DNA of 35,956 bases, taken from Dehalococcoidia bacterium (GTDB lineage: Bacteria; Chloroflexota; Dehalococcoidia; GIF9; AB-539-J10). Of this stretch, positions 6,504 to 35,737 are shown piece after piece (position 1 is the first letter of the stretch; each line of letters starts with the position of its first letter). Below the pieces are notes generated by a model. It did no database searches and was not told the origin of the DNA. It was given only the letters and a program-made list of their open reading frames with translations. Made by a program: the position numbers and the translations under genes. The stretch lies in the NCBI GenBank assembly GCA_030602785.1, contig JAUVZB010000024.1, positions 1 through 35,956 on the forward strand, given 5' to 3'.

Positions 6504-7333
6504 ACCGCCTGGCCGACGCCCTCCGCGGCGCCCGGCCCCGCAGCCTCTCCAGCCTGACCATGCAGGTGGAGGACGTCGAGACCTACCAGGAGTTTCTGCG
6601 CCTGGTTGACGAGTACCTGCCCGACCAGAGGCAGGAGATCCTCCAGGCGGGTAGCCCCGATAACATGGTGATGGCGTTCGCCCATCGCTTCTCGGAGCCC
6701 TACTTCCCCCTGGCGGAGCAAATGTTCTCGGGGGGTAACGAGTCCCTGAGCGACCTGATGCGCTGCATCCCCCTCGATGTGCACGGGTACGACTATGACG
6801 ATTACCACTGCCTGTGCGATGAGAGGCCCTCCGCGCTCCTGTCCTCCCTCCTGGTGGACTTCGAGGAGGAGCTGGGGATAGGGGAGGAGGGGGTAAGAGT
6901 CACCATACTGGAGGCGGCGGCGCAGCACGTCTCTCAGGAGCTCCTGGGCCGTATCCCCGGGAAGGGGTACTCCCTGGAATACCTGGAGCAGGTGCTGCCC
7001 GGCAGCAAGTATGAGGGGTTGCTGGACCGCGCCCGTCACATCTGCCACACGACCAACAACGACTTCCTGGACGTCACCGGGGAGGAGTATTGGAGTAATC
7101 CGCCGGATTGGGACCGGGAGCATGTGGATAACCTCACCCAGGAATGGCGCAAGGCGGTCGAGATGCAAGACCGGATGGTGACCTTCTTCAGCTGGCTGGA
7201 GGAGGACCTGAAGGGCAATTTCGCCCGCCTGCTGAGGTTCCTGGGGGCAATCGAGGCTGCGCCGGTGCCGCCGGAGCAGATGCGGCTGCCGCTGGAAGGA
7301 GATGATGCCGAAGAAGAAGACGACGACAACTGA
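6470..7333 (+). CDS. Acidic protein at PRTRC protein F position
   Basis: 287 aa from ATG 6470, overlapping the previous gene by 34 nt; the next Met is 31 residues in and has no better ribosome site. Mostly helical, with a middle segment CIPLDVHGYDYDDYHCLCDERP and CHTTNNDFLDVTGEEYW, and a very acidic tail. In proteobacterial cassettes the gene beside protein B is protein F; this protein has similar size and position, but I cannot confirm homology by eye. It overlaps the E2-like gene by 32 nt. Confidence 0.55.
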   Translation: MGAGEAGEGPLNRLADALRGARPRSLSSLTMQVEDVETYQEFLRLVDEYLPDQRQEILQAGSPDNMVMAFAHRFSEPYFPLAEQMFSGGNESLSDLMRCIPLDVHGYDYDDYHCLCDERPSALLSSLLVDFEEELGIGEEGVRVTILEAAAQHVSQELLGRIPGKGYSLEYLEQVLPGSKYEGLLDRARHICHTTNNDFLDVTGEEYWSNPPDWDREHVDNLTQEWRKAVEMQDRMVTFFSWLEEDLKGNFARLLRFLGAIEAAPVPPEQMRLPLEGDDAEEEDDDN

Positions 7334-8003
7334 GCCCGGTTTCCGGTGGGCCCTGCCGGAAGGGCTGGATGTGCCCCCTGACAAGCTGATCCTCCGGCTG
7401 GACATCTTCCAGGAGACTATCGTGCTGCACCAGTTCGGGGAGAACGGCACCACAGTTCGGGTGGTCTCCGCCCTGGAGGTGGCCAGGGCCTTCACCAAGG
7501 ACATTCGCCTCCACAGCGGGGCCCTCCCCGAGGGAGCCCTGTGGTGGAGCATGGGCCCGGAAGGGGAGGAGGTGGCGCTGTGGCGGAGTCCCCGGGTGTG
7601 GCAGGCGGCCCTGGTGGTGGAAGCTTTCAAGCCCCCCCAGCGCTTCAACCTGCCCATGCCCGGGCTGGTCTTCGTATGCTCGGCGGGGAAGCCGCCCCGG
7701 GTCTTCGCTGCCAAGAGGCGGCCGGCTGGTCTCAACTATCCCCTCTACCATGCTCCCCTGTTGAACCTTTTCATCAATGGCGGGAGCTGCACCGGCACCC
7801 ATCAGTACGGGCAGGATGTGGGCCAGCACCCCGAGGAGTTCTTCACGGCCTTCTTCAGCGACGCGGGACACACCTCGGGCAGGTCCAAGAAGTACCCCGA
7901 CGGCCTGCTGACCCTATGGGCGGAGCTGGACGGGAAGAAGAGCTACCCCATCCGGGACATGGTTTTACTGGGAACAGTGGAGCAGGTGATGGGGGAGATA
8001 TAA
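7302..8003 (+). CDS. PRTRC protein B, E2-like
   Basis: 233 aa; ATG 7302 and 7305 are adjacent and GGAAGGA favours 7305. The stretch MPGLVFVCSAGKPPRVFAAK, RPAGLNYPLYHAPL, then NGGSC (Cys163) and HPEEFFTAFFSDAGHT follows the PRTRC protein B family, grouped with prokaryotic E2-like proteins. Cys163 after the LYHAPL strand is the expected thioester cysteine. Its proposed role is to take the modifier from the E1-like enzyme. It overlaps its upstream neighbour, so the two are translationally coupled. Family call firm; E2 chemistry is from family knowledge. Confidence 0.82.
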   Translation: MMPKKKTTTTEPGFRWALPEGLDVPPDKLILRLDIFQETIVLHQFGENGTTVRVVSALEVARAFTKDIRLHSGALPEGALWWSMGPEGEEVALWRSPRVWQAALVVEAFKPPQRFNLPMPGLVFVCSAGKPPRVFAAKRRPAGLNYPLYHAPLLNLFINGGSCTGTHQYGQDVGQHPEEFFTAFFSDAGHTSGRSKKYPDGLLTLWAELDGKKSYPIRDMVLLGTVEQVMGEI

Positions 8004-8013
8004 AGGAGGACGT

Positions 8014-8298
8014 ATGGCCTTAGCAATGGGCCGCACAGTCATGACGAGGGGCGTGAGTGACCTGGCGGAGCAAGACACCACAGGCAAATTCCGGGCGGGT
8101 CTGGTCGACCTGCTGCGCCGCCACTCCAACGGGGATTGGGGGGATCTCTCCCCCGATGACCGGAAGGCCAACGAGGAGGCCCTGAAGACTGGAGCCAGGG
8201 TCTTCTCCGTTTACAACCTGCAGAGCGGCGTCAAGCTCTGGGTCATCACCGAGGCCGACCGGAGCTCCACCACCATACTCCTCCCCGACGAGTACTGA
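8014..8298 (+). CDS. Conserved mobile-element protein
   Basis: 94 aa from ATG 8014 after TAAAGGAGGAC. The features RRHSNGDWGDLSPDDRKANEEAL, GARVFSVY and KLWVITEADRSSTTILLPDEY belong to a small family seen widely on plasmids and integrative elements, with no known function. The near-invariant ITEADRS-TT-LLP end suggests a conserved binding surface. Confidence 0.75.
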   Translation: MALAMGRTVMTRGVSDLAEQDTTGKFRAGLVDLLRRHSNGDWGDLSPDDRKANEEALKTGARVFSVYNLQSGVKLWVITEADRSSTTILLPDEY

Positions 8299-8318
8299 CA
8301 TGAAAGGAGGTAACCGAG

Positions 8319-8552
8319 ATGCCTAAGTGCACGAAGTGCGACCGTGAGGTGGTTCTCCTGGTCAACCGGGTCGCCGAGGTCCACTTCTACGACCTCACGT
8401 TGGACGGTGACTGCCCCTCATACGAAGAGACGAGCTTTGAAACCTTCGGGCAGGGAGACTTCCGTTGCCCGCAGTGCCAGGAGCTTCTGTTCTCGGACTT
8501 GAACGCAGCCCTGGCCTTTTTGAAGGAGGTGCCCGATGCCACAAAACCCTAA
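8319..8552 (+). CDS. Two-knuckle zinc-ribbon protein
   Basis: 77 aa from ATG 8319 after AAAGGAGGTAACCGAG. CTKC at 4-7 and CPQC at about 51-54 form a ribbon separated by an acidic segment. It overlaps the next gene by 17 nt. Inserted within the PRTRC gene run. Function unknown. Confidence 0.6.
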   Translation: MPKCTKCDREVVLLVNRVAEVHFYDLTLDGDCPSYEETSFETFGQGDFRCPQCQELLFSDLNAALAFLKEVPDATKP

Positions 8553-8787
8553 GGATGTAGGCTGCCCCCAGTGCAACGCGGCGCCAGGGTGTCCCTGCCG
8601 CTACCCCTCGGGCAGGCTTTTCCATGGGTTTCATAGGGCCCGCTACTCGGCTGCTGATGAGCCCCACCCTCTTTTACGCGTCACCTGCCCCACCTGCGGG
8701 GTCGAGATAGGGCGCAAATGCGTCAAGCCGGGCACACGCCAGGAAATCTCCGGCATCCACACGCTCCGTCTGGGACGGAGGGGATAG
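8536..8787 (+). CDS. Tandem CPxC zinc-finger protein
   Basis: 83 aa. ATG 8536 follows AAGGAGGTGCCCG inside the upstream gene's end. Two diverged copies of one zinc unit are visible: CPQCNAAPGCPCR-YPSGRLFHGFHRARY and CPTCGVEIGRKCVKPGTRQEISGIHTLR. This CP-x-C...G-x-PC...H-x2-R type is common in actinobacterial and phage DNA-associated proteins. Its stop abuts the GTG start of the JAMM gene. Confidence 0.7.
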   Translation: MPQNPKDVGCPQCNAAPGCPCRYPSGRLFHGFHRARYSAADEPHPLLRVTCPTCGVEIGRKCVKPGTRQEISGIHTLRLGRRG

Positions 8788-9396
8788 GTGGCCACCGGCC
8801 TGGTCGGATACATCGTCCTCACCCGCGGGGGGGATATCGGTACCCGGGGCAGCGTCTACACCTACATCATGGCTGGCAACGGCCTGTGGCTGGAGGCGGA
8901 GAACCCCCTCCTGGAGGCCCGCATCCAGCTATCGTCCCTCATGGTGAGGGGGCTGCACCCCTTGCTTCCCCGGCTGGAGCTCCGCCACGGGCGCATACCC
9001 GCCCACCTGCTTTCCCTGGCGATGGATGCCTTCTCAGCCCGGTCCGAGCTGGAGGGCTACGCCGCTATCGCCTGGGATGGGGAGAAATACGAGCTGGTGT
9101 GGCCGGCGCAGGAGAGGACCGCGACCTCTGTGGTCTATGACAAGGTGCCCAACACCGTGGTGGGCCTCCACTCCCACGGCCGCATGGGGGCGTTCTTCAG
9201 CGCCACCGACGACGGGGACGACCTGGGCTTCCTGCTGGAGGTGGTGGTGGGGAAGCTGGACCGGCTGGTGCCGGCGGCCGGGGTCCGCCTCTGCATCTAC
9301 GGCTACCATGCCCCGGTGGAGCTCCGGGAGGTGCTCGCTGGGCTGGCGCCCTGGATCGAGGAGGCGAAAGCGCCTGGCGGTGACTGGCGGTTTTGA
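8788..9396 (+). CDS. PRTRC protein A, JAMM/JAB metallopeptidase
   Basis: 202 aa, GTG 8788 immediately after the previous stop, with GGAGGGG upstream. GLHSHGRMGAFFSATDDGDD contains the complete JAMM zinc site H128-x-H130-x7-S138-x2-D141 on a strand-loop-helix as in JAB proteases; the general-base Glu should lie upstream in the first half. JAB proteins next to E1-like proteins cleave ubiquitin-like modifiers from targets. As the modifier here already ends in Gly, deconjugation is the likelier job than maturation. The protein is cytoplasmic, with no signal or membrane span. Confidence 0.85.
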   Translation: MATGLVGYIVLTRGGDIGTRGSVYTYIMAGNGLWLEAENPLLEARIQLSSLMVRGLHPLLPRLELRHGRIPAHLLSLAMDAFSARSELEGYAAIAWDGEKYELVWPAQERTATSVVYDKVPNTVVGLHSHGRMGAFFSATDDGDDLGFLLEVVVGKLDRLVPAAGVRLCIYGYHAPVELREVLAGLAPWIEEAKAPGGDWRF

Positions 9397-9758
9397 GGTT
9401 CGCTCCGTACCCGAAACCCATAGCAAGGTCGCATACGCGGCGGCGCCTGATGCGGGCTGAGAAAACCCTTGAGACGCAGAAGGCGAAATACCCCATGTTC
9501 GCCGACCAGTGGAAGACGGAGACGGCAGAGGAGCGACTCAACCGGGTAGATGAAAGCGTCCGTCTTTCTGTGCAGCACATGAGGAGCCACCAGGCGGCGC
9601 TGTGGCGCCAGGCCCGGCGCGCTCTGTTTGCTCTGCCTGAGCCGCAGCGCAGGGTGCTGACTGATGAATGGAATGGCAACAGGTGGCTGCCGGGCTCGCC
9701 GGAGTACCTGCTGGATTTCCTAAGGGGGAAGGGGATTGGATTACCGCCTGAGCAATAA
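9393..9758 (+). CDS. Hypothetical basic helical protein
   Basis: 121 aa using a TTG start at 9393 that overlaps the JAMM stop (TTGA); ATG 9450 is an alternative without a clear ribosome site. Basic N-terminus (RSHTRRRLMRAEKTLETQKAKYP), a helical middle with TAEERLNRVDESV, and a C-terminal LTDEWNGNRWLPGSPEYLLDFL. Similar small proteins occur next to replication genes in mobile elements. It overlaps the E1-like gene by 23 nt. Confidence 0.6.
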   Translation: MRFAPYPKPIARSHTRRRLMRAEKTLETQKAKYPMFADQWKTETAEERLNRVDESVRLSVQHMRSHQAALWRQARRALFALPEPQRRVLTDEWNGNRWLPGSPEYLLDFLRGKGIGLPPEQ

Positions 9759-10527
9759 GTTCGGCAGCTACCACAACGGCATTGCACTAATCGGTGTAGG
9801 CGGCACCGGGAGCTTCGCCGCCGAAGGGATGGCTCGGCTGCTGGCTGGCCACCCCGATATCCGCCTGATCCTCATAGACGGGGACCGGGTGGAGGAGCGC
9901 AACCTGGGCCGGCAGAACTTCTACCCTGAGGACCTGGGCCGCTTCAAGTCCCAGGCCCTGGCGGAACGCCTGGCCAGAAAACACAGACGCCCTATAGCAT
10001 ACTCCATCCTCCCCCTCCTGCCAGGTGGAGTTGGGCACAGGGCTGTGGACGAGTGCTCCCTGTTGGTGGGCTGCGTGGACAACGCCGCCGCCCGCTCCAC
10101 CATCGCCGGCCTGGTGTCCTACTCCCAGTGGTGGGTGGACGCCGGCAACGGAGAGGAGTTCGGCCAGGTGCTGGTGGGCAATTCCACCGTGAAAACGCTC
10201 CGCACGGGCTGGTCCTTCCACCCGGAGGAGGGGGTAGTCAACGCCCTGCCCCTGCCCACCCAGGTGCGCCCGGAGCTGCTGGTCACTCCCGCACGGCCCC
10301 AGCAGGACTGCGCCGAGGCGGTGGCGGTGGGGGAGCAGGGGCCCACCATAAACCAGTTCATGGCCGCCATGGTGGTGGAGGCAGTGCGCCGGCTCCTGGA
10401 GGGGAGGCTGACCTGGTGGCAGCTTTTCCTGCAGCTGGAGTCGACAGGCCTCTACACGATGAGCCCGACACCAGAGGCGGTATCGAGGCTAACGGGGATA
10501 CCCGTAAATAAGCTGGAAAGGAGGTGA
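9736..10527 (+). CDS. PRTRC ThiF-family E1-like enzyme
   Basis: 263 aa with a TTG start at 9736 behind AAGGGGA. GVGGTGS at 20-26 is the ATP-binding loop. LIDGDRVEERNLGRQNF at 47-62 holds the Asp50, Asn56, Arg59 and Gln60 expected in E1/ThiF enzymes, with Lys71 in DLGRFKS. VGCVDN at 112-116 contains the conserved Asp. Cys192 in QQDCAEA lies where PRTRC ThiF proteins have a conserved Cys and is the candidate thioester residue. It should adenylate the C-terminal Gly of the 5795 product. All nucleotide-site residues appear intact. Confidence 0.88.
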   Translation: MDYRLSNKFGSYHNGIALIGVGGTGSFAAEGMARLLAGHPDIRLILIDGDRVEERNLGRQNFYPEDLGRFKSQALAERLARKHRRPIAYSILPLLPGGVGHRAVDECSLLVGCVDNAAARSTIAGLVSYSQWWVDAGNGEEFGQVLVGNSTVKTLRTGWSFHPEEGVVNALPLPTQVRPELLVTPARPQQDCAEAVAVGEQGPTINQFMAAMVVEAVRRLLEGRLTWWQLFLQLESTGLYTMSPTPEAVSRLTGIPVNKLERR

Positions 10528-10532
10528 TTACC

Positions 10533-11000
10533 ATGGAAGAGGAGAAAGGCCCTAACCCGGTAGAAGGGGACAAAGGCCCCAACCCGGTGGAAGGGGACAA
10601 AGGCGCCAACCCGGTGGAAGGGGAGGAAGAGGCGGAGGCGGAGGCGGAGGTGGAGGCGGAGGCGGAGGAGACAGCCGCCGAGGCCCCCACCGCCGAGTCC
10701 CCCCAGACCACCCCGGAGTTGAAGGTGGTGCTCCAGATATGGGGGACCCGTGCCATCGTCGGCATCCAGGGGACAAACACCGATCCGGTGGTGGAGACCC
10801 TGGAGACGGCCTCCCTGGAGGAACTGCTGGCGGCCGTGCCGGGGGTGCTGGCCCGGGCCAGGGAGCGGTGGGCCACCAGCCCCCGCAACCCCAAGTATGT
10901 GGGGCCGCCAGCGCCACCGCCGGCGACACCAGCACCAGGCAAGCCGGCGGGCCGGGCATCGAGACCCCCCGCGGCACCGACCCCACGGATGTTCGAGTGA
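10533..11000 (+). CDS. Acidic-repeat protein at the end of the PRTRC cassette
   Basis: 155 aa. ATG 10533 follows AAAGGAGGTGATTACC; the upstream in-frame GTG lies inside that site. Residues 5-31 are three GPNPVEGDK-type repeats, then an EAEAEVEAEAEE run, then a small globular part (LKVVLQIWGTRAIVGIQG...VVETLETASLEELLAAVPGVLARARERW) and a Pro/Ala-rich tail. PRTRC protein E would be expected nearby, but homology is not evident. It overlaps no gene, yet the ribosome site sits in the E1 gene's end. Confidence 0.6.
   Translation: MEEEKGPNPVEGDKGPNPVEGDKGANPVEGEEEAEAEAEVEAEAEETAAEAPTAESPQTTPELKVVLQIWGTRAIVGIQGTNTDPVVETLETASLEELLAAVPGVLARARERWATSPRNPKYVGPPAPPPATPAPGKPAGRASRPPAAPTPRMFE
10545..10624 (+). 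repeat. Three 27-bp coding repeats
   Basis: Units at 10545-10571, 10572-10598 and 10599-10624 differ at only a few bases. They encode the nonapeptide KGPNPVEGD three times. Near identity at synonymous sites points to recent slippage. Confidence 0.8.
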
Positions 11001-11008
11001 GTCCTAAA

Positions 11009-11031
11009 CGGCCCCGAGGTCGACGGGGCCG
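11009..11031. other. Perfect hairpin before clamp gene
   Basis: CGGCCCCG (11009-11016) pairs with CGGGGCCG (11024-11031) over a 7-nt loop. No T-run follows, so it is not a typical terminator. It may stabilise mRNA or pause transcription between cassette and clamp gene. Confidence 0.5.
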
Positions 11032-11036
11032 AAGGA

Positions 11037-11081
11037 AAAGCTACAGATTCTTGGAGAAAAAAGCTACAGATTCTTGGAGAA
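11037..11081 (+). repeat. 23-bp tandem repeat in clamp leader
   Basis: AAAGCTACAGATTCTTGGAG occurs at 11037 and again at 11060, a 23-bp period. Each copy carries GGAGAAA, so the potential ribosome site before the clamp start is duplicated. Confidence 0.75.
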
Positions 11082-11091
11082 AGGGGTAACT

Positions 11092-12276
11092 ATGCCTAAG
11101 AAAGAGAAGAAGGAGCCGGGGAGCGGCACACCCCCGGAAGCCCAGGCTCAGGTCCTTGAGGTCGGCGTAGCTGCGCTCAGGGAGGCCCTGGACCTGGTGA
11201 TCCCCGCGGTGCCCCGGAAGGCCCCACTGGCGGTCGTCAACCACGTGCGATTGGGTGACGGCCAGATAGTCGCTACCGACCTGGATGTGGCAGTTGCCGT
11301 AGCCCTGCCACAGGTCGAGGGAGCGATGCTGCTGCCCCCCCACGCGGCGTTGGAGTTCCTGGGCTACGCCCCGGGGCACCTGTCCGCCCACATAACGTAC
11401 GAGAACGGCACGGTCACCATCGCCGTGGATCGCATGCAGAGCAACTTCAAGGTGCCGGCCCTCGACGATTTCCCACCCGTCCCTTTCAGCAAGCCGGACG
11501 AGCTGGAGCACCAGGGGGTGCTGGAGGGTGATGCCCTGGTTCGGGCCATGACCGCAGTACTGCCCGCCGCCGCTACCGAAAGCGAAAGGCCGGTGCTCAC
11601 CGGCCTGTGTCTCACCATGGGGGACAAAGTCCAGGTGGTGGCCGCCGACGGCTACATCCTATCCTGGGAGGGGGTGCCGGGACGGCTGCCGGGGGAGGGG
11701 AACCTCTTACTGCCCGCCCGGGCGGTGCGGCTCCTGGCACACCTGTGGAAGAGGGCAGCCTCGCCCGATTTATCGGCTGCCTCGAACCCGGCACAGGTGG
11801 CCCTGGCAAAGAGGCTCATCCGGTTGGAGTGGGAAAAAGAGAAGCTGCAGATGCGGTTCGGCCGGGTGGCCCTGCTATGCAAGCTCACCCAGGGGAACTT
11901 CCCCGATTTCAACCAGCTCATCCCCACCGAGCATGCGGCCAGTGTCACCGCTGACGCCGGCGACATGCTCCGCGCCCTGCAGCAGGTCAAGGGCAAGGCC
12001 AAGGACGGCGCGGGCATCGTCCGTTTCAAGTGGGAGGGAGACAGTCTTCAGATTTCCGCCCAGGCTGTGGATATCGGCGACACCATGGTGCCAGTGCGGG
12101 TCCAGAGCAACGGTCCGGGGAAGACGGCCATGAACATCACCTACCTCCTGACGTACTTCAAGGGCAAGGAGGGCAGCGTCACCATGACCCTCCCGGAACC
12201 CGAGGGTGCGCCGATAACCTTCGCTCACCGGGGCACGCCCCATACCGTGCTGATGCCCATGACCGTGCAATGGTAA
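11092..12276 (+). CDS. dnaN: DNA polymerase III beta sliding clamp homologue
   Basis: 394 aa from ATG 11092 after GGAGAAAGGGGTAAC; the normal family length is about 370 and the extra is a Lys/Glu/Pro-rich N-terminus. It shows the three-domain clamp pattern: AVVNHVRLGDGQIVATDLDVAVAV in domain 1, VLTGLCLTMGDKVQVVAADGYILS in domain 2, and domain 3 with NFPDFNQLIP, KTAMNITYLLTYFKG and the closing VLMPMTVQW. A clamp encoded on a mobile element would tether DNA polymerase to the element or alter host clamp traffic. It follows the PRTRC cassette with a short structured leader. Confidence 0.9.
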   Translation: MPKKEKKEPGSGTPPEAQAQVLEVGVAALREALDLVIPAVPRKAPLAVVNHVRLGDGQIVATDLDVAVAVALPQVEGAMLLPPHAALEFLGYAPGHLSAHITYENGTVTIAVDRMQSNFKVPALDDFPPVPFSKPDELEHQGVLEGDALVRAMTAVLPAAATESERPVLTGLCLTMGDKVQVVAADGYILSWEGVPGRLPGEGNLLLPARAVRLLAHLWKRAASPDLSAASNPAQVALAKRLIRLEWEKEKLQMRFGRVALLCKLTQGNFPDFNQLIPTEHAASVTADAGDMLRALQQVKGKAKDGAGIVRFKWEGDSLQISAQAVDIGDTMVPVRVQSNGPGKTAMNITYLLTYFKGKEGSVTMTLPEPEGAPITFAHRGTPHTVLMPMTVQW

Positions 12277-23090: not shown

Positions 23091-23987
23091 TCATGTGAAT
23101 CGGGTCTCCCGGAAGCTCTTACCCTTGAGGGTGTGGCACTGGCCGCCCTGGGTCATCTCATACAGGCGGTCGGCGGTGGCCGGGCCCAGCAGGTCCTCCA
23201 GCCGCTCGCCGGGGACGTTAGTGCACAGCATCACCGGCAGGTCCTCCTGGTACCGCTGGTCAATGAGGTGGAAATAGACCCGCCTGGTGTGCTCGGACGG
23301 GGTTTCCTTGCCCACATCGTCCAGGATGAGCAGGGGCACCCCGCGCAGGCTGCGGTAGACCCTCTCTTCGGTGTCGAGCCCGGACACCCCCCTGTCATAG
23401 GTGGCCCTTATCCGAACCAGGAGCCCGGGGCCGGTCTCATATCGCACCGGGCAGCTGGCCCGGCCAGGGTCGCCGTCCCATCGCTGGAATATCCGGTGGG
23501 CTACGGCGTTGGCCAGGTGGCTCTTCCCCAGCCCGTTGGTCTCGGAGAACAGCCACAGGGAGGGGTAGCCGTGGGCGTCCTCCAGGGAGAAATCGTCGGC
23601 GTACTTCTGGCATTCGCGGACCACCCCGGTGAGCCCGCTGCGGCCCTGCCAGCTCTCGAAGGTGCTCTCCCAGAACTTGCGGGGCATGCTCTCCACCCAC
23701 TGCTCCCGCACCCGGGCCTGGGCCACCAGGAGCGCCCGCCCCGCCTCCTCAGCCTCCTCTGCCACCCGCTGGGCCTCCTCCGCCCTCAGCCGCTCGATAC
23801 ACTCCGGGCACTGCTTAGGCCCTATGACCCGGGGCCCCGAGCGGAGCGCGTAGACGGTGACGGCCGCCTCAAACTCCCGGCCGCACTCCTTGCAGGGCCT
23901 GTTTTCAGTCGTCTCCTGCGATTCTCTTCCAGGGTAGTCGAGGAGCTTGCGAATCGGCTGCCAGCCGCCGCCGCGGGACTCTACCAT
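23091..23987 (-). CDS. DnaC/DnaI-like helicase loader
   Basis: 298 aa. ATG 23987 follows AAGGAGGCCCCCC; the longer reading lacks one. A four-Cys zinc module (C32, C35, C60, C63) precedes a coiled-coil linker (RLRAEEAQRVAEEAEEAG) and an AAA+ core with Walker A NGLGKS ending at 156 and Walker B LLILDD near 219-224. This order matches DnaI/DnaC-type loaders and phage homologues. It would load replicative helicase at the origin marked by the replisome organiser, whose gene overlaps it by 83 nt. Confidence 0.85.
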   Translation of the reverse strand: MVESRGGGWQPIRKLLDYPGRESQETTENRPCKECGREFEAAVTVYALRSGPRVIGPKQCPECIERLRAEEAQRVAEEAEEAGRALLVAQARVREQWVESMPRKFWESTFESWQGRSGLTGVVRECQKYADDFSLEDAHGYPSLWLFSETNGLGKSHLANAVAHRIFQRWDGDPGRASCPVRYETGPGLLVRIRATYDRGVSGLDTEERVYRSLRGVPLLILDDVGKETPSEHTRRVYFHLIDQRYQEDLPVMLCTNVPGERLEDLLGPATADRLYEMTQGGQCHTLKGKSFRETRFT

Positions 23988-24600
23988 GGGGGGCCTCCTT
24001 CGTCTCCTTGCCTTTACCATGCCCAGCGTGCGGGCGCTGGGCAGGCGGAGCCTGCACTTTGGGGGGGTCGGGGGGATACTCTTCTTTTATATTATGTTGT
24101 GTTATGTTATGTTGTCGTCTACCTAAAGCTTTACCTAAAGCGATACCTAAAGAGGGAGGCCCGGTGACCTCCTCGGCGAGTTGATCCAGAGGGGTGTCTC
24201 CGACCTTATTGGTCACCCCCGGCCAGTTGATGGTGATCACCCGGTTCTTTCCCCGGAAGCGAAGCCGGTCGTCCCAGGTCCCGGCAGGCATGAACTCGCT
24301 GGGGTACGCCCACTGCATTGTCGCCTGGTCTTCCCACCACTGCGCTATCTGGACGACCGGCTCGGGGCCGTCGTCGTAGATGATGGCCAGGCCCACCCGC
24401 TGCATTTCGGCCAGCAGCCCCGCGATGCGCTCGGCGGGGATCTCGTGGACGTTAGGGCACACCGTCCACTTAACCCTTTCGGCGTCAGCGGAAAGGCGGC
24501 CCTGGTCGTCGGCGTTGGCCTCCAGCAGGGGGTAGAGTACCTTGCCAAGCAATGAGAGGGCGGCGTACTGCCGCGACCGGCTGAGGCCGCTGGAGATCAT
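23905..24600 (-). CDS. DnaD-type replisome organiser with embedded origin
   Basis: 231 aa. ATG 24600 follows AAAGGCAGG; the longer ORF has none. Residues 10-95 (LLGKVLYPLLEANADDQGRL...WTVCPN...ERIAGLLAEMQRVGLAIIY...VVQIAQWWEDQA) are the winged-helix N-domain of phage replisome organisers. Residues 150-161 are encoded by three 12-bp iterons and 164-175 by an AT-rich tract (HNITQHNIKEE). The basic, Pro-rich tail is likely flexible. It overlaps the helicase loader and would bind the iterons inside its own gene. Confidence 0.82.
   Translation of the reverse strand: MISSGLSRSRQYAALSLLGKVLYPLLEANADDQGRLSADAERVKWTVCPNVHEIPAERIAGLLAEMQRVGLAIIYDDGPEPVVQIAQWWEDQATMQWAYPSEFMPAGTWDDRLRFRGKNRVITINWPGVTNKVGDTPLDQLAEEVTGPPSLGIALGKALGRRQHNITQHNIKEEYPPDPPKVQAPPAQRPHAGHGKGKETKEAPHGRVPRRRLAADSQAPRLPWKRIAGDD
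24079..24152. other. Candidate replication origin: iterons and AT-rich tract
   Basis: ACCTAAAG occurs at 24121, 24133 and 24145, an exact 12-bp period. Directly beside it lies 24079-24115, about 80% A+T in a GC-rich element, with repeated TTATGTTG/TTATGTTA words. Iterons next to an unwinding tract inside an initiator gene is the arrangement of many phage and plasmid origins. Confidence 0.7.
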
Positions 24601-24634
24601 CCTGCCTTTACCCAGGGGTGGCACGGCGCTGGTT

Positions 24635-24669
24635 AAAAACGAAGGGGGTACCGTGATGACGGTACCCCC
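24635..24669 (-). terminator. Attenuator-like terminator in rep leader
   Basis: On the minus strand, GGGGGTACCGT (from 24669) pairs with ACGGTACCCCC over a 4-nt loop, followed by TTCGTTTTT ending at 24635. It is an 11-bp perfect hairpin plus T-tract, 35 nt before the replisome organiser start and downstream of the minus-strand promoter at 24793-24823. Confidence 0.75.
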
Positions 24670-24672
24670 AAC

Positions 24673-24701
24673 TTGACAGATTCTGTTCGGTGGTCTATCG
24701 T
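24673..24701 (+). promoter_or_regulatory. Promoter for small antisense transcript
   Basis: TTGACA (24673-24678), 17-bp spacer, TATCGT (24696-24701). The -35 is perfect and the -10 keeps T1, A2 and T6. No plus-strand protein gene follows, only a short terminator-ended interval. Confidence 0.65.
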
Positions 24702-24707
24702 GGCTAT

Positions 24708-24776
24708 ACGGTTCACAGTTGCTCCTGTGGCCTGTGGGCACCCACCCTTCCAGGCGGGGGTGGGTGCTTCCTTTTC
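24708..24776 (+). ncRNA. Predicted antisense RNA to rep leader
   Basis: From the expected start about 24708, a 5' hairpin (CACAG-6 nt-CTGTG, 24714-24729) is followed by a terminator: GCACCCACCC (24738-24747) with GGGTGGGTGC (24758-24767), then TTCCTTTT. The roughly 70-nt RNA would be complementary to the first part of the minus-strand rep leader. Predicted from sequence only. Confidence 0.6.
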
Positions 24777-24792
24777 GGGGCGAACGGTTCCC

Positions 24793-24823
24793 ATCATAGC
24801 TTACCCTGATGGCGGGCTGTCAA
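24793..24823 (-). promoter_or_regulatory. Promoter for replication operon
   Basis: Minus strand: TTGACA (complement of 24818-24823), 19-bp spacer, TATGAT (complement of 24793-24798). Five of six -10 bases are consensus. A transcript starting near 24786 would cross the antisense RNA region and the attenuator before reaching the gene at 24600. The -35 overlaps the end of the upstream gene. Confidence 0.6.
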
Positions 24824-25119
24824 GGGGTTTTCAGCCGATGCCCGGCTATGAAGACCGGCAGCGAAGGGCGGTCATCCCACAGCACCCAGTAGCCGAAGTT
24901 GATCCCGGGTGGCGCACCATGCTTTCGGGCCTCTTCCTCACTGAACCCCACCGGACCCAGGGAGCCGACGACCACCCCGGGGTCCCCGTCCACGTGGGCA
25001 TCCCCGGATTTCGAGTTAACCTTCACGACTGCAGTGCCGTTGGGGATGCCTCCTCGGGGGCCGGCGTCTACGCAGCTGAAGGTGACAGCCCCGAACAAGC
25101 CTTGCCCTTGTGGGGTCAT
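24820..25119 (-). CDS. Hypothetical protein
   Basis: 99 aa from ATG 25119, in an ATGA overlap, with AAGGAGC upstream. GLFGAVTFSCVDAGPRGGIPNGTAVVKV and FSEEEARKHGAPPGINFGYWVLWDDRP recall a small mobile-element family. It looks beta-rich. Its stop lies inside the -35 of the replication promoter. Function unknown. Confidence 0.6.
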   Translation of the reverse strand: MTPQGQGLFGAVTFSCVDAGPRGGIPNGTAVVKVNSKSGDAHVDGDPGVVVGSLGPVGFSEEEARKHGAPPGINFGYWVLWDDRPSLPVFIAGHRLKTP

Positions 25120-31111: not shown

Positions 31112-32970
31112 GGTTCTTCCTCTTGGCCTCCGTCGAGCATCGACAGCTCATTTGACCTCAGGCTGTGGATGAGCAGCAGGGCCGCTAACTCGGGCACTGA
31201 ATCCTTCGCGGCGCTGGCTATGCGCCCTGTCAGCCGCCTATTATCCCCCAGGGCGCTATAGTCGTGCCCCTTGGACAGTCCCAGCAGCTCCCGCACCCTG
31301 TGCAGGGTGTAGGGCTCGTATTTCTGCAGGCCCCTGTAGTCCTTAAACCTGAATTCCTGGCCGGCCACCAGGGCCAGGGACACCATCCGGGCCAGCCGCC
31401 GGTTGGACAGCAACATGAAGAGGTCCTTGGCCAGCTCCTGGGTGGCCGTTCTCTCATCCTCCCGGTGCCCCTCGAACTCGGCCTCCGCCGTGGCCCGGCC
31501 GGCAGCCAGTTTCTCTTCGTAATGCTTCCTGTTGAAGCAGAACAGCTTCGGCGAGCTGTCGTACTGCTGATAGCCGTAGGTGGCGCCGGTGGTGCACCTC
31601 TCCAGGCACTCCTCTATGTCGGGGAAGTACTGCGGCGGCCCTCCGTATTGGTTCCGGTCCAGCGCCTTAGAGAAGCCCGAGTGCTTGCCGAGGTTGACCG
31701 TCTTGTCCCGGGTACCCAGCACCTGCCTCATCTCCGGTGTCATGGCGGAAACCGCCACCGCTTTGGCCTTTTTCTGGCGTTTTGAGGGGCTCTGAGGCAC
31801 ATCCGCCACAGTCTCGGGTGTTTCTACAGAAACCTGTGAATCGCCCGCCGAAACCTGTGAACCGCCCGCCAGCTGCCTGGCCACCGCCATCTGCCTGGCC
31901 ACCGGGTCGGTGGCCAGGGCCTTCTCCCGCATCCGGTCCTGCACCGGGAGATCTGCAGGGGCCCGGGCCGGGCCGGATCCCCCGGCCGTTTCCCCCTTGG
32001 CCGTTTCCTCCTTGGCCGTTTCCCGCTTGGCCGCCTCGTGGCGCCGCCCCCACGCCTTCACATCGCAGGTCATGGCCAGGCTGCGATCTTTGGTCGTCCG
32101 TTCGCCGCCGCCCGAGAAGGTGCTGGCATCCCAGGGGATGGTGTGCACCATAGTGGGCAGATCCCGCTGGAAGGCCTCTACATCGAACAGGGGGTCGGTA
32201 CGGTGGCTGCTGCCGTAGTCGAAGTGGCTGGTATCCTTGCCACTCAGGCTGCCCACCCGGCGCCACTCCTGCACAGTGCTCTTCTGCACCCTGTCCCGTA
32301 TGAGGCGGCGGATGTTGGGCGCCCTCCAGTCGGGGCCGGCCCCCAGGCGGGTCTTCGCCACCTCCATCACCACCGACTTCATGATATCGGTGTGCATGTG
32401 ATCCTCGGCCGTCAGGCACAGGAACTCCCGGGCGGCGAAGGCGCTCATCTCCCCGGACTCCACGTGCTGCAGCACCACCGCGGGCAGCTTGAGCAGGCGC
32501 ATGGCGTTGGACAGGGTGGAGTGGTCCAGGCCCAGTGAGGTGGCCAGGTCGGTGACGGTGAGCTCGGGGATGGTGTCCAGGGCCTTCTTGTAGGCGCGGT
32601 AATTCTGCAGGGGGGTGAGGTCGGTGCGCTTGTTGTTTTCAGTGAGCGCGACGACCGCCATCTGGGCATCGGTGAGCTCCCTGAGTACCACGGCGATGGT
32701 TTGGGGCCACTGCCCCGCGTCGGCCAGCTGCCTCATGGCCAGCAGCCGTGTCATGCCGAAGGCCAGCTGGTATTTCCCCTGCTCGGCCCCCAGGCGGACG
32801 GTGAGGGTCTGCAGGAGTCCCACCTCCTGGAGGCTCTGCGCCATGTCCCGCACGTCCTCCGGGTTGCGGTCCAGGCGCGGATCCCAGGGGTTGGGTTGGA
32901 GTAGGTCCAGGGCCACCTCGAGTACGCTGCCCTGGGTGGACGCCGCTTGCATGGTATTTGCTCCTACCAT
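31108..32970 (-). CDS. PRTRC-type ParB-family protein
   Basis: 620 aa from ATG 32970 after GAGGAGGGATAACT. Residues 15-115 are the ParB/Srx domain (LDLLQPNPWDPR, MAQSLQEVGLLQTLTVR, KYQLAFGMTRLLAMRQLA, ALTENNKRTDLTPLQ). The nucleotide-contact GERR is replaced by GMTR. An HTH follows (TVTDLATSLGLDHSTLSNAMRLLKLP). The extended C-terminus has KETAKE-type repeats and a Cys cluster (C455, C459, C478), as in the long PRTRC ParB family. It likely binds a centromere and pairs with the cassette on the other strand. Confidence 0.8.
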   Translation of the reverse strand: MVGANTMQAASTQGSVLEVALDLLQPNPWDPRLDRNPEDVRDMAQSLQEVGLLQTLTVRLGAEQGKYQLAFGMTRLLAMRQLADAGQWPQTIAVVLRELTDAQMAVVALTENNKRTDLTPLQNYRAYKKALDTIPELTVTDLATSLGLDHSTLSNAMRLLKLPAVVLQHVESGEMSAFAAREFLCLTAEDHMHTDIMKSVVMEVAKTRLGAGPDWRAPNIRRLIRDRVQKSTVQEWRRVGSLSGKDTSHFDYGSSHRTDPLFDVEAFQRDLPTMVHTIPWDASTFSGGGERTTKDRSLAMTCDVKAWGRRHEAAKRETAKEETAKGETAGGSGPARAPADLPVQDRMREKALATDPVARQMAVARQLAGGSQVSAGDSQVSVETPETVADVPQSPSKRQKKAKAVAVSAMTPEMRQVLGTRDKTVNLGKHSGFSKALDRNQYGGPPQYFPDIEECLERCTTGATYGYQQYDSSPKLFCFNRKHYEEKLAAGRATAEAEFEGHREDERTATQELAKDLFMLLSNRRLARMVSLALVAGQEFRFKDYRGLQKYEPYTLHRVRELLGLSKGHDYSALGDNRRLTGRIASAAKDSVPELAALLLIHSLRSNELSMLDGGQEEEP

Positions 32971-35445: not shown

Positions 35446-35505
35446 TGATCCAAAGTGGCCCAAAATGGTCCAAAGTGGGCCAGAGTGGTCCAAAGTGGGC
35501 CGGGG
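35446..35505 (+). repeat. Three 20-bp iterons
   Basis: Units start at 35446, 35466 and 35486 with the core TCCAAAGTGG. Units 2 and 3 share TGGTCCAAAGTGGGCC. They run straight into GGTGGCCGGGGC repeats to about 35540. Confidence 0.75.
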
Positions 35506-35712: not shown

Positions 35713-35737
35713 CGCCCATAACTTAATGTTATGGGCG
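35713..35737. repeat. 25-bp palindrome
   Basis: CGCCCATAAC-TTAAT-GTTATGGGCG is a perfect 10-bp inverted repeat in an otherwise G-rich region, lying between the two long direct repeats. No T-run follows on either strand, so it is a protein-binding site rather than a terminator. Confidence 0.75.

Follow-up and report, generated by a model that had tools for sequence, protein, structure and literature searches.

In plasmid pT181, which has an 87-nt countertranscript, the leader contains a pre-emptor that base-pairs with the terminator's 5′ arm as long as the antisense RNA is not bound (PMC5703833). RNAIII of pIP501 (136 nt) induces attenuation, and this plasmid has a 329-bp leader, an origin downstream of repR and a repressor, CopR (PMC4981023). 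The countertranscripts of repABC plasmids are 55-59 nt long (PMC10194956), and RNAI of pSK41 is approximately 83 nt long, has two stem-loops and acts on translation in a plasmid that is described as having no terminator and carries its ori within rep (PMC5703833). In lambda, the origin lies inside O, and the activity of pO, which faces pR, lowers pR transcription; the figure legend in that source names only tR1, tR2 and tO as terminators (PMC3985674). For PRTRC-like elements, no description of replication control was found in the literature searched. As the preliminary description of this DNA had supposed, the search found no antisense control for PRTRC elements; the antisense RNA treated in PMC10194956 belongs to repABC/repC modules.

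The window analyzed here is an entire contig of 35,956 bases, part of a 2.57-Mb assembly, and no terminal repeat pointing to a circular contig was found in it. We focus on a 230-bp gap before the start codon of a putative replication initiator (Table 1), and we give about even chances, judging from its sequence, to its being a countertranscript control unit for replication in which the leader terminates by default.

Table 1. Features of the replication region and of the PRTRC-like block, in window coordinates
Feature	Coordinates	Strand	Remarks
PRTRC-like B, A and ThiF genes, then beta-clamp-like gene	7302-12276	+	
DnaC-like helicase loader	23091-24020	-	phrog_50, E 9.5e-47
Putative replication initiator	23905-24600	-	231 aa, ATG 24600; phrog_1408 replication initiation protein, E 5e-4
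Initiator leader	24601-24786	-	~186 nt; noncoding by codon periodicity
Leader ORF	24633-24716	-	27 codons, GTG 24716; candidate antiterminating ORF
Minus intrinsic terminator (attenuator position)	24634-24669	-	perfect 11-bp stem 24669-24644, loop 4, tail TTCGTTTTTA
Countertranscript promoter	24673-24701	+	TTGACA-N17-TATCGT; TTGACA 24673-24678, TATCGT 24696-24701
Predicted countertranscript	24708-24775	+	~68 nt, two stem-loops; inferred from promoter and terminator
Plus intrinsic terminator	24738-24775	+	perfect 10-bp stem 24738-24767, tail TTCCTTTT; d 3.0
Leader (initiator) promoter	24793-24823	-	TTGACA-N19-TATGAT; TTGACA 24823-24818, TATGAT 24798-24793
ORF upstream of leader promoter	24820-25119	-	99 aa, no assigned function; TGA stop inside promoter -35

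The initiator assignment is putative. Its PHROGs match is weak, and no RepC match and no Rep family match were found in Pfam and NCBIfam at the limits used; the assignment draws also on gene order and on an origin-like block within the gene. The "replisome organiser" of the preliminary description is a likely identification. An AlphaFold structure computed without an alignment had a mean pLDDT of 38 and was left unused. Within the initiator gene, starting at 24076, sits the 40-mer with the highest AT content in the window (22.5% GC), and three TACCTAAAG repeats in 12-bp steps (24120, 24132 and 24144) adjoin it. Because the 40-mer and the repeats resemble an iteron origin, positions 24076-24152 are probably an iteron/AT-rich replication origin.

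The minus and plus promoters of the gap face each other, and the plus promoter, with 10 of 12 positions matched, was the top sigma-70 match of the whole window; the 19-nt spacer of the minus promoter is longer than optimal. Across both strands of the window, the only hairpins with d > 0 were the two gap terminators, that on the minus strand having the highest value (d = 12.8; d is a d'Aubenton-Carafa-type score). Both are one-way terminators, with opposite-strand values of -25.5 (minus terminator) and -47.3 (plus terminator). The preliminary description had reported a minus-strand promoter upstream of the initiator, a plus-strand unit of about 70 nt with its own promoter and terminator, and a perfect minus-strand terminator 35 nt before the gene. 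All were found where it had placed them, the unit measuring approximately 68 nt and the terminator lying approximately 34 nt ahead of the ATG. Its further claim that the small RNA is complementary to the beginning of the initiator leader is well supported as anatomy, the ends of all transcripts in the gap being predicted ones. Since no promoter-like site was found downstream of the minus terminator and ahead of ATG 24600, initiator mRNA must pass through this terminator.

Chance is excluded for the promoters and stems of the gap. Two exact-TTGACA promoters occur in 24601-24830, whereas none of 5,000 dinucleotide shuffles had two and 0.16% had one. The gap likewise contains two of the four perfect stems of at least 10 bp in the whole window, and none of 2,000 dinucleotide shuffles contained two (one in 0.4%). 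The gap is noncoding, because GC content by codon position was flat in its open frames (59/59/56 and 53/60/60, vs. 67/48/72 in the initiator gene). Flat codon periodicity also ruled out a 54-codon ORF (24797-24633) as coding and an N-terminal extension of the initiator from GTG 24741. The predicted countertranscript folds at -35.4 kcal/mol; stem-loop 1 spans 24708-24735, with its loop at 24719-24724, and stem-loop 2 is the plus terminator. Rfam gave no matches at gathering score in the whole window, with the ctRNA family included, and only chance-level matches to rnk_pseudo, RNAI and snoR125 at E values up to 5.

This layout shares with pT181 RNAI/repC a short RNA antisense to the initiator leader and a terminator-like hairpin directly before the gene (PMC5703833), and with pIP501 RNAIII/repR the convergent sense and antisense promoters and the pre-gene terminator (PMC4981023), although no counterpart of CopR was found here. 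A short countertranscript between the preceding operon gene and the initiator is also present in repABC (p42d; PMC10194956), but the initiator here is not RepC by Pfam or NCBIfam and there is no Rfam ctRNA match. The size of the RNA, its two stem-loops and the probable origin within the initiator gene recall pSK41 (PMC5703833). As in lambda cII-oop-O-P, a short convergent RNA with its own promoter and terminator lies just upstream of an initiator gene in which an iteron origin (here a probable one) is embedded, and heads away from that origin; the loader gene comes next (PMC3985674). The locus differs from lambda in its extra leader promoter and extra pre-initiator terminator, in its proteins, which showed no sequence relationship in the tests made, and in the position of the RNA, which is inside the initiator leader and would end at 24775, before the end of the upstream ORF at 24820.

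Relatives of the cassette were sought with its proteins and its DNA, and no close one was found. The initiator protein matched only its own genome among 100 related genomes and among 400 genomes of the phylum; among 52 genomes of the family it matched its own and one other by chance, the second match being rejected because its frame contained seven stops. Pattern scans for the initiator yielded 24 stretches but no relatives in genome contigs and no relative in viral contigs, and pattern scans for the loader and the MCM-like ATPase yielded no matches. Leader DNA matched, among 197 genomes of the class, its own genome and a 37-bp segment of one other, which was rejected because it sits in a coding frame. 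The loader protein had matches in 272 of 294 class genomes, nearly all of them weak and to general AAA proteins, the best outside its own genome being L004, L005 and L006 (40, 39 and 38%).

Alignment of the loader with viral contigs gave 113 relatives, of which 80 were kept; with L004 and L006 they form a survey of 82 loci, from which L005 was omitted because its contig begins at the loader. Of these, 76 had an initiator-sized gene upstream of the DnaC-like loader, and at none of them did the 250 bp upstream contain a terminator with d ≥ 0 on one strand or the other, the gene being picked by length alone and the viral loci being non-independent; at other gene starts in the survey, an antisense terminator was found at 1 of 420. 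The nine best syntenic loci keep the order of an initiator-like gene followed by the loader. The best PHROGs match of this gene was to a replication-initiation or DnaD-like family in seven of them (E ≤ 1e-5), L079 having a weak match (7.5e-4) and L078 none. The gap before the initiator-like gene was at most 100 nt in eight of the nine, and the ninth (342 nt) had no stem of at least 8 bp. Because distant loci keep the gene order without the unit, the cassette seems either to have been acquired or to have arisen locally, or else to be rare. One viral contig with a related loader (L080, positions 829-971) has, before its initiator-like gene, an 8-bp hairpin, a T-run on the antisense strand and an antisense promoter matching 9 of 12 positions; as an oop-like unit it is a weak candidate, under the d threshold, and was not counted.

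The preliminary description had assigned the region to pT181/pIP501-type control. In attenuation of the pT181, pIP501 and repABC type, the antisense RNA would keep a pre-emptor off the 5′ arm of the terminator, which then forms. Layout and RNA size are alike here, and nascent leader RNA is predicted to pair its start with the 5′ arm through a short GCCCC-GGGG. Terminator pairing was modeled for the free leader and for a leader in which the part covered by the antisense RNA was barred from pairing. Pairing was 0.983 when free and 0.984 when blocked, that is, without an antisense-dependent switch in these equilibrium models, which are blind to a purely kinetic effect, and it stayed at 0.978-0.984 when the transcript start was shifted from 24785 to 25119. 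The minus terminator is thus predicted to form without antisense help. In the positive controls, for which terminator arms and transcript starts were picked from sequence by the analyst, pairing rose from 0.001 to 0.79 in p42d repABC and from 0.52 to 0.99 in pT181. Stabilization of the pre-emptor kind was 8.75 kcal/mol in the leader vs. 10.1 (sd 2.6) in shuffles, 69% of which reached it, and in 38% of shuffles the loss upon antisense blocking was at least as large. The corresponding value for pT181 was 12.4 kcal/mol (shuffles, 3.7; sd 1.5), which 0 of 200 shuffles reached, so that pT181 passed clearly; p42d passed the equilibrium test, but the stabilization test is weak alone for it (20% of shuffles). 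The alternative anti-terminator pairing that the preliminary description had proposed to look for did not rise above shuffle background (65-73% of shuffles equaled it). In the models, therefore, the leader shows no detectable RNA switch of the kind that is present in repABC and clear in pT181. The countertranscript in the leader and the terminator before the gene stand as sequence features, but an antisense-driven shift of the leader into the terminator was not found in the models, and the pT181/pIP501 label is unearned because its defining pre-emptor switch was tested and not found; we consider attenuation of this type quite improbable. Translational control as in pSK41, with antisense binding masking the ribosome site of the initiator, is highly improbable despite the similar size and the two stem-loops of pSK41 RNAI: predicted openness of the start site (mean unpaired) was 0.329 free and 0.324 blocked, and this lack of change speaks against such an effect.

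Rather than acting on the leader as antisense, the short RNA or its promoter might instead, as an oop-like unit, affect either the upstream gene or the balance of transcription and replication at the origin within the initiator gene. The lambda layout, with its origin inside the initiator, its loader next and its convergent short RNA leaving the origin, favors this; the predicted RNA, however, stops approximately 45 nt short of the upstream ORF and so is not complementary to the mRNA of that gene, which leaves the lambda cII-transcript target without a counterpart, barring read-on. Lambda is also not known to have a terminator directly before O at this place, and an oop-like role appears improbable. 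The gap could also hold no regulation at all, its promoters and terminators belonging to two small transcripts independent of each other, or insulating one gene block from another. The survey, with no unit at the 76 loci and the short or stemless gaps of the nine best syntenic ones, is what this would lead one to see; but the parts are beyond chance, the plus terminator would end nothing else, and the minus terminator would shut off the initiator to no purpose. The absence of regulation is unlikely in our assessment. Countertranscript control is itself favored by the paired promoters and one-way terminators, the noncoding gap, the obligatory read-through and the lambda-like layout, by the plus unit having no gene to serve, the nearest family-recognized plus-strand genes being the PRTRC-like block and clamp at 7-12 kb, and by the RNA having the size and place of known initiator countertranscripts (pT181, pSK41 and repABC). 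Against it count the failure of the searches to find a close relative, the 19-nt spacer of the minus promoter, the 0 of 76 loader loci with an antisense terminator and the models in which antisense blocking alters neither terminator nor start-site pairing.

Under countertranscript control with default termination, leader RNA would start near 24786 and by default stop at the minus terminator, so that little initiator mRNA would be made. The 68-nt plus RNA, made constitutively, would pair with leader nucleotides ~11-79, and this pairing, with convergent transcription, would cut read-through further as copy number rises. Since no RNA pre-emptor was detectable, an alternative RNA fold is probably not what relieves termination; the likeliest means would be a leaky terminator, which is the simpler alternative, or translation of the leader ORF by a ribosome that runs across the terminator. 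The leader ORF has a Shine-Dalgarno sequence, AGGAG (24726-24722), five bases before GTG 24716, and its TAA lies inside the terminator U-tract. Three of the five Shine-Dalgarno bases fall in the loop of antisense stem-loop 1. Its anti-Shine-Dalgarno binding energy, -6.6 kcal/mol, is roughly on a par with that of neighboring genes (-7.2, -5.5, -2.4 and -11.7) and of the initiator (-6.5). Translation into the U-tract would hold the terminator open; the antisense RNA would stop the ribosome at its Shine-Dalgarno, and the terminator would close, leaving the initiator unmade. We judge this sequence of events distinctly unlikely. The ORF as antiterminator is suggestive only: a comparable leader ORF occurred in 259 of 3000 shuffles (8.6%), and the idea was formed post hoc, once the sequence had been inspected. 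CopA blocks translation of a leader peptide, and pyrBI has a coupled attenuator; by analogy, antitermination by the leader ORF would unite both in one replication switch. A type I toxin-antitoxin system was dropped because the 27-codon peptide was, by eye, non-hydrophobic.

In the cassette, a loader and an initiator that seems to contain its origin, as in lambda, are combined with a countertranscript and an attenuator of plasmid type, without the RNA pre-emptor on which known attenuators rely. If the leader ORF were an antiterminator, an antisense RNA would set copy number by a different route. The leader is small and cloneable and is therefore amenable to laboratory testing.

Elsewhere on the contig, the PRTRC-like A, B, ThiF and ParB proteins matched their families with E values of 4e-18, 2e-12, 2e-29 and 8e-13, respectively, all under the curated cut-offs. 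The PRTRC label in the preliminary description holds in the form "PRTRC-like". ThiF genes of this kind were found in 17 of 294 class genomes, none above the family cut-off; near them (12 of the 20 places outside its own genome), the initiator, loader and MCM-like gene gave no match at E 1e-4, within a view limited by contig ends. The MCM-like ATPase gene lies on the minus strand, as do the putative initiator and the DnaC-like loader. Three GGCCGTTTCC repeats in 15-bp steps (31984-32023) are located within the ParB-like gene. The contig also encodes a RecT-like protein and a tyrosine recombinase. Three TCCAAAGTGG copies in 20-bp steps (35449-35497) occur in the recombination-gene region, and a perfect 10-bp inverted repeat, CGCCCATAAC / GTTATGGGCG (35713-35737), close to the contig's recombinase end, is possibly a recombination or operator site.
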